57,249 bases of DNA from an uncultured Lachnospiraceae bacterium. GTDB taxonomy: Bacteria > Bacillota > Clostridia > Lachnospirales > Lachnospiraceae. Position 1 is the first letter of the stretch. Every line of letters starts with the position of its first letter. A program made the position numbers and the translations under genes. Positions 6,182 to 56,511 of this stretch are shown piece by piece. The notes beneath the pieces are model-generated. The model ran no database searches and was not told the origin of the DNA. It saw nothing but the letters and a program-made list of their open reading frames with translations. The stretch covers positions 1-57,249 of the forward strand of contig CATOOV010000017.1 in NCBI GenBank assembly GCA_951801955.1, given 5' to 3'.

Positions 6182-6267
6182 ATATCAGATGAGGGATGTT
6201 TCCCGCCTCTGTAGGCGGTGAGTAACTTGTTTGTATCCGTGGCAGAATCCCATCCCTCATCCGATAT
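6182..6267 (+). repeat. Structured repeat family R1, copy A
   Basis: The outer arms ATATCAGATGAGGGATG (6182-6198) and CATCCCTCATCCGATAT (6251-6267) enclose a small hairpin, CGCCT-CTGT-AGGCG (6204-6217). GTGAGTAA follows directly. Other copies have CACTT/AAGTG at the same hairpin, so the pairing is kept while the bases change. The rest of the 6080-6475 gap holds R2-like tail sequence (GACCATAACGGAGTGAAGAG at 6314) and no gene. Confidence 0.75.
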
Positions 6268-6475
6268 GCTTAAAGCGGGTACTGGATGTTTGGTGGACAT
6301 CCGTTTAACACCGACCATAACGGAGTGAAGAGGCAGAAATGCACAAAAGAAACCTGTCATATGAGGTATGGCGTGCGCTTCGTAGTAAGAATGCTGCCAG
6401 TATTCTCGAATTATATGTTTCCTTATTGGAGTGACAGCCCTTTTTTTAAATGATTAAAAAATATTTAAAAAAGTA

Positions 6476-6504
6476 TTGACAAATCTTTCTGAAACGTGTA
6501 GAAT
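6476..6504 (+). promoter_or_regulatory. Promoter of the tRNA-Phe/Gly/Gly operon
   Basis: TTGACA (6476-6481), a 17-base spacer and TAGAAT (6499-6504), about 25 bases before the first tRNA. Confidence 0.85.
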
Positions 6505-6528
6505 AATATCGTTGCTGAAACACAGCAA

Positions 6529-6601
6529 GCCCAGTTAGCTCAGTTGGTAGAGCAGAGGACTGAAAATCCTCGTGTCTCTGGTTCGATTCCGGAACTGGGC
6601 A
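6529..6601 (+). tRNA. tRNA-Phe (GAA)
   Basis: The acceptor stem GCCCAGT pairs perfectly with ACTGGGC. The anticodon loop ACTGAAAAT gives GAA. CCA is not encoded. First of three tRNA genes under one promoter. Confidence 0.97.
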
Positions 6602-6623
6602 TTACACTGCAAGGTGTTATTGT

Positions 6624-6694
6624 GCGGGTGTAGTTCAATGGTAGAACACCAGCCTTCCAAGCTGGATACGTGGGTTCGATTCCCATCACCCGCT
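6624..6694 (+). tRNA. tRNA-Gly (TCC)
   Basis: The acceptor stem GCGGGTG pairs with CACCCGC. The anticodon loop CTTCCAA gives TCC. CCA is not encoded. Confidence 0.97.
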
Positions 6695-6699
6695 CTTAT

Positions 6700-53129: not shown

Positions 53130-54194
53130 ATGGGTGCATGGGAAAAAAATGTGCGCAAGGTCGTTCCCTATACGCCGGGAGAACAGCCAGACTGTACAAA
53201 TATCATAAAATTAAACACCAATGAAAATCCTTATCCACCGGCGCCAGGGGTGGCGGATGTATTAAGAAAGTTCGATGCACAAGTGCTCAGACGGTATCCG
53301 GATCCAGCGGCAGAGGCGCTTGTTTGTGCGTTGGCAGACCACTATGGTGTAAAGAAAGGACAGGTTTTTGTAGGGGTTGGCTCTGATGATGTACTGGCAA
53401 TGAGTTTTTTGACTTTTTTCAATGGAAAGAAACCTATTCTTTTTCCAGATATCACTTATTCCTTTTATGACGTGTGGGCAGATCTTTTCCGCATCCCTTA
53501 CCAGTGCCTGCCTCTGGATGAGGAATTTGAAATTCGCACAGAAGATTATTTTAGGGAATGCGGCGGTATTGTGATTCCAAATCCCAATGCACCCACTGGT
53601 GCCGAGAAGGATTTGTCAGAATTAGAGCAGATTATGGCACATAATTCTGATGTGATTGTCATTATAGATGAAGCATATATTGATTTTGGAGGGGAATCCG
53701 CGGTCAGCCTTCTTTCAAAGTACGACAATCTTCTGGTAGTACAAACATTTTCCAAATCAAGAAGCCTTGCTGGTATGCGCATTGGCTATGCATTTGGCAA
53801 TGAGAAGCTGATTAAATATTTGAATGATGTGAAATACTCTTTTAATTCTTATACGATGGACACTGTCACCATTGCAGTTGGAGTGGAAGCAGTAAAGGAT
53901 GATATATATTTTCAAAAGATGCTTAAGAAAGTGGTCGATACAAGGGAATGGACTAAAAAAGAACTGCGCAGGCTGGGATTTTTGTTTCAGGATTCCAAAA
54001 GCAATTTTATTTTTGCCACCCATCCCAAATGCCCCGCAAAGGCGTTGTTTGAGGCATTGAAGAAAGAAGGGATTTTTGTGAGGTATTTTGATAAGCCCAG
54101 AATTGACAATTACCTTCGGATTTCCATTGGTACCGATCAGGAAATGAAAACTTTGCTTGCATTTTTAGAACAGTATTTAGGAGAGAATGTATGA
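53130..54194 (+). CDS. hisC: Histidinol-phosphate aminotransferase (HisC type)
   Basis: 354 residues. It starts with PYTPGEQPD and LNTNENPYPP, typical of HisC. PLP lysine in TFSKSRSLAGMRIGYAFG; the C-terminus has YLRISIGTDQEM. It would convert imidazole-acetol phosphate to histidinol phosphate; HisC-like enzymes can also act on aromatic or other substrates. No other histidine gene is near. It overlaps the DUF368 gene by ATGA, so it is in an operon with a second aminotransferase and a membrane protein. Confidence 0.87.
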   Translation: MGAWEKNVRKVVPYTPGEQPDCTNIIKLNTNENPYPPAPGVADVLRKFDAQVLRRYPDPAAEALVCALADHYGVKKGQVFVGVGSDDVLAMSFLTFFNGKKPILFPDITYSFYDVWADLFRIPYQCLPLDEEFEIRTEDYFRECGGIVIPNPNAPTGAEKDLSELEQIMAHNSDVIVIIDEAYIDFGGESAVSLLSKYDNLLVVQTFSKSRSLAGMRIGYAFGNEKLIKYLNDVKYSFNSYTMDTVTIAVGVEAVKDDIYFQKMLKKVVDTREWTKKELRRLGFLFQDSKSNFIFATHPKCPAKALFEALKKEGIFVRYFDKPRIDNYLRISIGTDQEMKTLLAFLEQYLGENV

Positions 54195-55039
54195 TTAAAA
54201 TGATATTAAAAGGCGTGGTGATGGGAGTGGCAAATATCATTCCCGGAGTCAGCGGTGGAACGATGGCTGTTTCTATGGGCATTTATGATAAAATCATTCA
54301 TGCCGCAACGCATCTGCTTTCGGAATTTAAAAAAAGTGTGAAGGTATTGTTTCCAATTGTCCTTGGAATGGCGCTTGGGATTGTGGTGTTGGCAAGGATT
54401 ATTGAGTATATGTTTCAAAAGGTCCCGTTTCAGACCAATTTATTGTTTATCGGCCTTATTATAGGAGGGCTTCCAGCGATTGCAAAAAAGGTAAAAGGCA
54501 AAACCATCCGGTTCGGGCATATCCTTGCTTTTCTTCTATTTTTTGGATTGGTAGCGGGATTGGCTATGTTGGGAGAACAGGAAGGGGCTGCGGCTGATTT
54601 AACTTTTAATGTGGTTAATGTAGTAAAAATTTTTGGAGTTGGGATTGTGGCTTCTGCCACAATGGTGATTCCTGGAGTCAGTGGTTCCATGATGCTGATG
54701 CTGATGGGGTACTACAATCCTGTACTCAGTGAGATCAATGGTTTTATTGACAACCTGGTGCATTTTAATATGCCTGGGATTTTAGAGGGGTGTAAGGTGT
54801 TGGTGCCTTTTGGAGTCGGCGTAGTAATCGGCATCTTTGCTATTGCAAAGATGATCGAGATTATTTTTGATAAATTTCCTGAGTATGCTTATTGGGCAAT
54901 TATTGGATTGATTGTGGCATCTCCAGTGGCAATATTTCTCATGAATAGTTTTGGAACGATCACCTTGGTTTCCATTCTTTCAGGCGCTGCCGCTCTAGTG
55001 ATCGGGATTGTGATTGCTCTGAATTTAGGGGAAGAGTAA
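54191..55039 (+). CDS. DUF368 membrane protein, candidate polyprenyl-phosphate translocase
   Basis: 282 residues with about eight membrane segments. The two inverted halves each carry the family motif: NIIPGVSGGTMAVSMGIYD and MVIPGVSGSMMLMLMGYYNP. DUF368 proteins (PopT) have been tied to recycling of undecaprenyl phosphate across the membrane for wall synthesis. The start overlaps the hisC stop by four bases. It is the last gene before the glyA promoter. Confidence 0.88.
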   Translation: MIKMILKGVVMGVANIIPGVSGGTMAVSMGIYDKIIHAATHLLSEFKKSVKVLFPIVLGMALGIVVLARIIEYMFQKVPFQTNLLFIGLIIGGLPAIAKKVKGKTIRFGHILAFLLFFGLVAGLAMLGEQEGAAADLTFNVVNVVKIFGVGIVASATMVIPGVSGSMMLMLMGYYNPVLSEINGFIDNLVHFNMPGILEGCKVLVPFGVGVVIGIFAIAKMIEIIFDKFPEYAYWAIIGLIVASPVAIFLMNSFGTITLVSILSGAAALVIGIVIALNLGEE

Positions 55040-55049
55040 ATATTTGTTC

Positions 55050-55078
55050 TTGACATTCAAAATATCACATTATATTAT
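55050..55078 (+). promoter_or_regulatory. glyA promoter
   Basis: TTGACA (55050-55055), 17 bases, TATTAT (55073-55078), 65 bases before the ATG. The leader is too short for a glycine riboswitch and PurR-like motifs are not evident. Confidence 0.75.
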
Positions 55079-55143
55079 TTATTGTGGATATTAATAATTG
55101 TGGGAAGAATAATAAGAATATACAGAAAGAAAGGAAAAGGAAG

Positions 55144-56379
55144 ATGTATTCTTTTGATGAAGTGAAAAAAGCGGATCCTCAAGTGGCAGACGCCATTACA
55201 GCAGAGATGGAAAGACAAAACAGCCATATTGAGTTGATTGCATCCGAAAATTGGGTTAGTAAGGCTGTTATGGCAGCGATGGGAAGCCCTATGACAAACA
55301 AATATGCAGAAGGGTATCCAGGCAAGCGGTATTATGGCGGATGCGAATGTGTGGACGTTGTGGAAAATCTTGCCATTGCGCGTGCCAAAGAGCTGTTTGG
55401 CTGCGATTATGCCAATGTACAGCCCCATTCTGGCGCGCAGGCAAATATGGCGGTACAGTTTGCGATGTTGGAACCAGGAGATACTGTGATGGGAATGAAT
55501 CTGGACCATGGCGGACATCTGACACATGGAAGCCCTGTGAATTTTTCTGGCTCTTATTTTAAGATTGTGCCTTATGGAGTGAACGATGAAGGGTTTATCG
55601 ATTATGACGAGGTCAGGGAGATTGCATTGGAATGTAAGCCCAAGATGATGATTGCAGGTGCAAGTGCCTATGCCAGAACGATTGATTTTAAGAAATTCCG
55701 TGAAATTGCAGATGAAGTGGGAGCTTATTTAATGGTGGATATGGCACATATCGCAGGTCTTGTGGCAGCAGGCATCCATCCAAGCCCTATTCCTTATGCC
55801 CATGTAGTCACCACGACCACCCATAAGACCCTGCGCGGTCCAAGGGGCGGTATGATCTTAGCTAACCAGGAGATCGCAGACAAGTTTAATTTTAACAAAG
55901 CAGTCTTTCCAGGAATCCAGGGCGGTCCGCTGATGCATGTGATTGCGGCAAAGGCAGTATGTTTTCAGGAAGCTTTGGATGACAGTTTTAAGGTATACCA
56001 GCAAAACATTGCCAAAAATGCCCAAGCATTGGCAAAAGGGCTGATGGATCGAGGAATCAAACTGGTATCTGGCGGAACGGACAACCATCTGATGCTTGTG
56101 GATTTAACACCATTTGAGCTGACTGGAAAAGCAGTAGAAAAGTTATTGGATTCTGTCAATATTACCTGCAACAAGAATACCATTCCAAATGACCCTAAGT
56201 CTCCGTTTGTCACCAGTGGGATCCGTCTTGGCACTCCTGCAATTACGTCCAGGGGATTTGATGAGGCGGATATGGACAAGGTTGCAGAATGCATTGCAAA
56301 AATGATCAAAGAGGGAGAAGCAGCTTCCGAAAAAGTGCGTGGAATGGTCAAAGAATTGACAGATAAATATCCGTTATAG
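55144..56379 (+). CDS. glyA: Serine hydroxymethyltransferase
   Basis: 411 residues from the ATG at 55144 (AAAAGGAAG). An in-frame ATG at 55084 would begin just after the -10 and has no site. It interconverts serine and glycine with tetrahydrofolate. Conserved parts: [41 protein letters not shown], and the PLP lysine Lys228 in [14 protein letters not shown]. Present as a single gene with its own promoter. A structured repeat lies right after the stop. Confidence 0.97.
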
Positions 56380-56397
56380 AGCAAGTTTTTTGCATTC

Positions 56398-56511
56398 ATC
56401 CCATCGGAGAAGACTCCCACTTCTACAAATGGTGAATAAAACGAATTTATCTTAGTGGGAATCCAATCTTCGATAGAGACAAAAGCCCCGGCGGAAGCGT
56501 CAGGCAGACGG
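56398..56511 (+). repeat. Structured repeat family R1, copy E (long form)
   Basis: ATCGGAGAAGACTCCCACT, CTACAAATGGTGAATAAAAC, AGTGGGA (56454-56460) that pairs with TCCCACT (56415-56421), then ATCTTCGATAGAGACAAAAG and GGCAGACGGCAC. Together with copy D it defines a full element of about 110 bases. It lies in the glyA 3' region. Confidence 0.75.

Follow-up and report, generated by a model that had tools for sequence, protein, structure and literature searches.

What is R1, the hairpin-forming repeat that lies in five unrelated gaps of a 57,249-nucleotide (nt) contig from an uncultured Lachnospiraceae bacterium (GenBank assembly GCA_951801955.1, contig CATOOV010000017.1)? This contig (C17) was analysed in its entirety and is called the window below; the source genome comprises 3.62 Mb in 164 contigs and is 89% complete. 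A first-pass annotation, made from the letters alone, had regarded R1 as either a selected RNA or a structured mobile element. Here, we found that R1 is the left half, or left-end module, of a larger gene-less element, and that the R1 family very probably consists of non-autonomous transposable elements of the IS200/IS605 type (PATE-like), which carry no genes and measure about 145-230 nt when intact.

Insertion sites and distribution

One exact empty site was identified in genome G027, in which the same segment is present twice, at 92-93% identity, with and without the element. The filled version reads GGGAAATTTAT, then CTCATCGG...GTTCTTGAA (the right end of the element is also written GGCGTTCTTGAA) and then CCTAACTC; the empty version reads GGGAAATTTAT followed directly by CCCAACTC. 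The insertion is 173 nt long and runs from C to TTGAA, the word TTTAT stays in the left flank, and nothing is duplicated. At this site the element thus behaves as IS200/IS605-type elements do, inserting 3' of a retained short word without target duplication, which supports the mobile option of the annotation. Further support comes from the patchy presence of R1 at an orthologous locus and from an IS200/IS605-like left end with its target-guide logic (see below). The gap between gyrB and gyrA contains a 224-nt copy in the source genome, and R1 was absent from this gap in all 25 genomes of the same genus whose flanks were both resolved (3 of the 28 were unresolved). A search of the fetched gyrB-gyrA loci of all 28 genomes with the covariance model gave nothing up to an E-value of 1. 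Tandem arrays were also observed, with TTGAA joined to CAG in L157 and TTCAA joined to CGG in L124; by their sequence, these joints would be the ones expected from a circle.

At the family level, a covariance-model match (E <= 0.001) was obtained in 74 of 250 genomes (nearly one genome for each genus) in a survey that scored at most 10 candidates per genome under stricter filters and in which some genomes overlap others in this analysis. Among the matches listed for the 29 genomes of the genus, R1-type matches occur in G000, G002, G004 and G027, and in one further genome, G011, the core alone was matched, with one mismatch (L193). Viral contigs gave 2 matches only.

Architecture of the intact element

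The stretches singled out by the first-pass annotation are real copies of R1, but they cover left modules only; a right module exists, and copy A of the window extends to position 6410. Six intact copies measured 145, 146, 173, 174, 224 and 229 nt. Near-identical copies in several genera have unrelated flanks and one constant end. This right end, compared among copies with unrelated flanks in other genomes (hosts mostly Lachnospiraceae), is a CAAG...CTTG hairpin followed by AA and thus ends in ...TTGAA, with the variants TTCAA in the metagenome-assembled genome (MAG) RUG14296 and TTGAC in G058. The structure ahead of the right end is conserved, and a long hairpin (GCAGGG...GTCAGC-GCTGAC...CCCTGC) separates this end from R1. 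Right modules were found without the left module, and left modules without the right one. We also considered the R1 core as a marker of the right end, as in tnpB elements, and dropped this candidate as the flanks place the core at the left end in R1.

In three copies of the source genome (L014 at about 1440-1570, L015 and L026/L029, on contigs C25, C20 and C12), a small repeat of the TATACC...TTTGGGTA type lies within the CTAT loop of the core hairpin, apparently inserted at TA. Outside Lachnospiraceae, the same core hairpin (CTCCCGCTTCTGCAAGCGGTGAGTA) occurs inside a different outer stem (TTATCCGATGACTAACCCGCTC...GAGCGGCTAAGTCCTTGGATAA) in L116 (Pectinatus haikarae, Negativicutes) and in L153.

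The left end and its target guide

The left end is a subterminal hairpin with a guide of five bases at its 5' foot, and the bases at guide positions 2 and 3 are the complements of those at flank -3 and -4, with which they vary in step. Flank words include TTTAT, TATAT, TTTAA, TTCAT and similar ones. In a set of 83 rows, obtained with a stricter filter, they were combined with foot words as TTTAT-GAAGA (19 rows), TATAT-GATGA (13), TTTAA-TAAGT (8), TTCAT-TGAGA (5), TTTAA-GAAAT (3) and rarer types. The complementary fraction was 0.86 for guide position 2 versus flank -3, 0.83 for position 3 versus -4 and 0.81 for position 5 versus -1. The mean number of guide pairs was 1.69 of 2 compared with 1.20 after shuffling (reached in 0 of 5000 shuffles), and 1.37 compared with 1.03 when only the 41 distinct types were used (again 0 of 5000); several misplaced rows were kept and rows of one genome are related, so these shuffle counts are not probabilities. 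In the 5x5 table of flank by guide positions, the highest mutual information was that between flank -4 and guide position 3.

The pairing with flank -3 and -4 corresponds to the pairs A16:T-3 and A17:T-4 in the crystal structure of IS608, for which a preference for C at +1 after the target word is also described (PMC5934647). According to this source, IS608 and ISDra2 share with R1 the subterminal left hairpin with a guide 5' of its foot, the insertion 3' of a retained short word and, on the 3' side of the left hairpin, a second one; the lack of target duplication at the empty site is a further likeness. Unlike them, R1 elements are gene-less, have a right end (the CAAG...CTTGAA hairpin) dissimilar to the left one, contain a long extra hairpin (P4/P5) with strong covariation and an inner strand complementary to five flank bases, and use a target word that varies both between and within lineages. 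The PATEs of Haloquadratum are likewise too short for a transposase and lack target duplication, and their near-terminal palindromes are related to those of IS605-type transposons (PMC3119063). They belong to another domain of life, however, and the palindromes at their two ends are similar in sequence, unlike the ends of R1, whose covarying internal structure is moreover kept across many genera.

Folds and covariation

The two exclusive folds postulated in the first-pass annotation were borne out, with CTCCCAC pairing either with GTGGTGAG or with a downstream GTGGGAG. The small hairpin is present as well but is longer than had been described (CTC-CCRCYT-CTAT-ARGYGG-(T)-GAG, with one bulged T); it is partly broken in copy D (CCACTTCTATCCGTGG) and has one mismatch in copy E. 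The GTGAGTA segment, taken to be constant and unpaired, is in part paired, since its GAG closes the small hairpin. Its TA tail sits where bases of IS608 form triplets with target pairs (PMC5934647), which is an analogy only.

The compensatory changes reported from the five copies were confirmed, and covariation in wider alignments is strong, so that the outcome named in the first-pass annotation as refuting its proposal did not arise. In A2, an alignment of 27 full-length copies that was not fitted to the model, 97.8% of the cells in 39 consensus pairs are paired, and 19 of these pairs are altered on both sides. The covariation score was 0.366, compared with 0.132 in shuffled alignments (reached in 0 of 500) and at most 0.086 in slid ones; further pair types were not above the shuffles (38 compared with 37.5). 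The wider alignment A3 has two-sided changes in 35 of the 39 pairs, but it was fitted to the model, has at least 2 copies in common with A2 and includes one antisense row, and is hence not independent. A scan of the genome contigs for the core, in which R and Y were unconstrained on both sides, yielded at least 118 stretches. Among the 125 core matches listed, which include some IS605-like right ends and many of which stem from few genomes, the R-Y position was Watson-Crick in 124 and G-T in 1, and the Y-R position was Watson-Crick in 121, G-T in 2 and mismatched in 2. The third, alternative arm covaries too: the three strands agree in 65 of the 67 listed matches having that arm.

Copies in the window and in the source genome

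The positions of the five copies given in the first-pass annotation held, with 43-78 bits under the full-length covariance model, whose matches start at 56386 (+), 19133 (-), 37374 (+), 6172 (+) and 31927 (+). The features of the window are as follows.

6181..6185, + strand: TATAT, target or left flank word of copy A, host DNA (by sequence and the empty-site/guide rule)
6186..6410, + strand: copy A, full-length, A-type (66.4 bits over 6172-6410)
19142..19231, - strand: copy B, B-type, left module only (73.5 bits)
31941..31986, + strand: half copy, consisting of left arm and core hairpin (43.3 bits)
37388..37522, + strand: copy D, left module and decayed right part (73.4 bits)
56400..56496, + strand: copy E, left module, right module lost (77.9 bits)
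817..900, - strand: right-module fragment, GCAGGGGTGCGG..GTCAGC..CCGCACCCCGC with remnant of the terminal hairpin (45.9 bits for 1010-817)
21535..21622, + strand: right-module copy ending GTGGCTTGAA (36.3 bits for 21465-21620)
41545..41631, + strand: decayed right-module fragment ending TATTCTTGAA (20.9 bits for 41366-41631)

The copies in the window are mostly old and truncated. Copy A is a decayed full-length element, in which a left module, an extra hairpin module and a right module are followed by a decayed terminal ...TTCTCGAA. The target of copy B is TTTAT at 19232-19236, and its right module is gone after GCCTCCG. TTTAT lies directly 5' of the half copy (31936-31940), with an open reading frame ending close upstream at 31928, and is also the target of copy D (37383-37387); that of copy E is TTCAT (56395-56399). 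The right-module copy at 21535-21622 is nearer to the GCGCAGGGATTC type of other genera, and a weak covariance-model match was found at 2464-2580.

The copy number of R1 in the source genome is far above chance, as the core pattern with at most 2 mismatches had 40 matches compared with 4 for the reversed pattern. BLAST with copy B as query listed 44 matches, and the full-length covariance model (E <= 0.001) gave at least 68 full or partial matches, many of them partial, in 723 kb of the source genome picked because hits were there. These copies fall into two subfamilies: B, in which TTTAT is followed by CTCATCGGAGAAGACTCCCACTTCTATAAGTGGTGAGTA... (window copies B, half, D and E), and A, in which TATAT is followed by CAGATGAGGGATGGCTCCCGCCTCTATAGGCGGTGAGTA... 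(copy A). A hybrid copy, L036 (contig C10, minus strand, at about 27340), combines an A-type left arm and core with a right end that matches a B-type left arm in reverse complement (TCTTCTCCGATGAGATAAA), and its sequence suggests recombination between the two subfamilies.

Transposases and IS605-type relatives

A search for a REP-type transposase, as suggested in the first-pass annotation, yielded no partner. With up to 4 mismatches, the R1 core was absent from all 30 loci with Y1 transposase genes; the covariance model gave 8 weak matches at 39 such loci, none of them flanking a Y1 gene on both sides, and at L241 a decayed R1 copy lies on just one of the two sides. Matches to tnpB exist in the source genome. 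In R1-bearing genomes, two elements with TnpA and TnpB (L221 in G083 and L236 in G091) have the same left-end design as R1 and different right ends. This design was also observed in L222 (most of tnpB gone), in a contig of E. ramulus (L085), in a viral contig (L315) and in gene-less Ruminococcus elements. In ten IS605-like left ends (11 pattern hits minus L168, which has no such end), guide position 5 matched flank -1 in 10 of 10; as the pattern fixes positions 2 and 3, only position 5 is informative.

One IS605 type (that of L069, with the left hairpin CCCACTGGCTTTAGACGGTGGG) recurs in the R1-bearing genomes G000, G004, G080, G082 and G086. In L230, L231, L232, L243 and L248, the left end of this type directly follows TTGAA, the end word of R1 elements. 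The gene-less elements of Ruminococcus MAGs (L093 at about 7640-7915 on the + strand, L121, L158, L079, L115 and L150) are about 300 nt long. They have an IS605-like left end (TTTTAA followed by CCTAAATGGGCAAGAAGTCCCCC...) and a promoter-like stretch TTGACA...TAAAAT, and their conserved part ends in a hairpin ...CTCCCGCCTCTATAGGCGGTGAGTACTTCAC, behind which the flank is unique. Judged by these features, they look like omega-RNA-only transposons without tnpB; Rfam gave no match at the two loci scanned (L093 and L121). The R1 core CTCCCRCYTCTRYARGYGGTGAGTA is also the right-end hairpin behind a tnpB gene of Clostridium magnum and in these Ruminococcus elements. In such omega-RNA right ends the core stands directly before CTTCAC or GTTCAC and a unique flank, whereas in R1 it forms the left end.

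A possible second guide

Immediately 3' of the second hairpin lies a strand, here called the inner strand, whose complementarity to the flank spans the five-base word and extends little farther. It may tentatively be regarded as a second natural target guide, with the odds somewhat against it. In the set of 83 rows, complementarity to flank positions -1 to -5 was 0.92, 0.86, 0.82, 0.72 and 0.69, and fell to 0.29 at -6 and to background farther out. When partners were re-dealt, the values were 0.63 at -1 and 0.42 at -4 (a large gain for the true partners), 0.78 at -2 (a smaller gain), and 0.77 and 0.65 at -3 and -5 (a slight gain). An earlier automatic pairing of flanks and inner strands had used 109 rows per run, many of them in wrong registers. 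In G140, the flank word, the foot guide and the inner strand all differ between two copies (TTTAT/ATAAA versus TATAT/ATATA for flank and inner strand), and co-changed combinations of flank and inner strand occur elsewhere (TTTAA/TTAAA in G039, G176 and G226, TTCAT/ATGAA in G194). On the other hand, the TTCAT copies of E. ramulus, with the foot word TGAGA, retain the inner strand ATAAA, so that the foot guide seems to rule. A second guide might act as a splint that holds the 5' end of the element against the target, and lineages could change their insertion word by re-setting both guides together. In IS608, too, a second hairpin occupies this place, and PMC5934647 describes pairing from that region engineered to extend targeting. 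If the proposal is true, the inner strand would be the natural counterpart of this engineered extension.

Alternative explanations

The alternative left by the first-pass annotation is a host-selected structured RNA (a regulatory leader, small RNA or processing site) that was dispersed by chance. The 39 largely intact and often two-sidedly changed consensus pairs would fit such an RNA, as would the 5 of 20 analysable copies (of 30 loci) in which a start codon is no more than about 35 nt away from the left end. However, R1 is not kept at the orthologous gyrB-gyrA locus, its neighbours differ and its orientation to them is not fixed, it is scattered over fewer than a third of the genomes surveyed in the family, and it matches no Rfam family. 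Because positions and neighbours vary, the proximity of start codons looks like an intergenic landing place and not like a regulated leader, and we consider a host RNA improbable. A fixed regulatory leader of one gene was rejected on the empty gyrB-gyrA locus of the resolved relatives and the variable gene context. A known RNA family was rejected after scans with Rfam 15, which gave no gathering match at R1 in the window and none at R1 places up to an E-value of 3; at 7 R1 or IS605-like loci there were just two weak overlaps with microRNA models, far under the cut-offs (L108 and L096).

Two other kinds of mobile element were weighed, each with very little probability in our judgment. In a classical DDE-type miniature inverted-repeat transposable element, TTTATCTCAG...CTGAGATAAA would be the terminal inverted repeats and the right module a separate neighbour, consistent with outer arms that are complementary across five flank bases and hardly further, and with right and left modules that each occur without the other. 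This is contradicted by the exact empty site, at which TTTAT is present, the right module lies within the insertion and no target is duplicated, and by the ends, which are unlike each other; in several genera, the constant TTGAA lies at the outer edge of the right module. Equally hard to sustain are REP/BIME-like elements mobilised by a domesticated TnpA-REP (RAYT). They resemble R1 in their extragenic hairpins, 5' foot guide and high copy number, and their enzymes belong to the same superfamily of single-strand enzymes (PMC6006769 and PMC8266576); in addition, Y1 proteins in long open frames (205-287 amino acids) are present in G038, G082, G085, G088, G089 and G091. Nevertheless, none of the long Y1 frames examined has R1 hairpins on both sides, the source genome (at its given completeness) contains no long Y1 frame, no flanking RAYT gene was seen, and R1 elements have another length and layout, being units of 145-230 nt with two unlike ends. 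Nor is a GTAG-type foot word the rule: the words are usually GAAGA, GATGA or TAAGT, with TGAGA and GAAAT also common, and REP-type guides were rejected on the 83 rows, of which one has GTAGA and one GGAGA.

Several observations weigh against IS200/IS605-type elements as well. No transposase is bounded by R1-like ends on both sides; Y1 matches in 18 of 29 genomes of the genus do not track the presence of R1, and G002 has R1-type matches but no Y1 match. The terminal hairpin and TTGAA of the right end are constant yet unlike the left hairpin, and the covariation of the inner hairpins is deeper than a filler needs. The start pattern demands C, so that finding this base at the start of the elements is in part a product of the pattern. 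There is a single exact empty site; a second attempt gave no clean junction, and the junction at an E. ramulus site was unreadable, the sister genomes carrying 70-80 nt of unrelated sequence there. Insertion into the lagging-strand template leads one to expect a strand bias. By local GC skew it was absent in the source genome (23 of 44 best matches), and G257 and G286 together gave 14 of 17 (17 of the 20 listed copies being taken).

For the IS200/IS605-type reading, we infer the mechanism beyond the left end from knowledge of the family, because no transposase with R1-like ends on both sides was found, the two ends of the element are dissimilar and the strand bias is mixed. A Y1 (HUH) transposase supplied in trans would bind the hairpins on single-stranded DNA, and pairing of the foot guide with the flank word would position the cut. 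The element would then leave as a circle with its ends joined (TTGAA to C), and the same foot guide would pick the next target. By forming either the small hairpin or the long arms, the element may alternate between the form that the enzyme uses and a long fold-back.

Other repeats in the window

Besides R1, the window has a second repeat family (GGCGCGGAACAAAAGATGCGTTAGC...; length about 90 nt, copies 75-91% alike and in both orientations), which is dispersed over 32127-32287, 36801-37056 and 51653-51766 and in some places adjoins TTCTCATATAGGAAATT.../TTCCTATATGAGAA hairpins. A third short repeat of the CAATGTACCCAAAGGGCACTTAGGAAAATAGCCATGTTTCCATGGAT type occurs at 617-677, 10741-10801, 19100-19160 and 37530-37590, and abuts R1 copies B and D.

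Implications

In a literature search, with most subscription journals outside its coverage, none of the titles and abstracts concerned these Lachnospiraceae repeats. In our best reading, R1 elements are a widespread and unnamed IS200/IS605-type family with an unusual internal structure and naturally varied pairs of guide and target. A large class of short Lachnospiraceae repeats without Rfam match would thereby be explained. Many contigs of R1-bearing genomes end in R1 copies, which makes the elements relevant to assembly gaps. There is also a caution for RNA-motif discovery, in that RNA-like repeats with strong covariation can be single-strand DNA transposons and not host RNAs. Finally, the target-guide rule of IS608 would be seen here in natural elements of many genera, in which a change of flank word goes along with a change of guide, and base-pair-directed target choice and its evolution would become testable from sequence.

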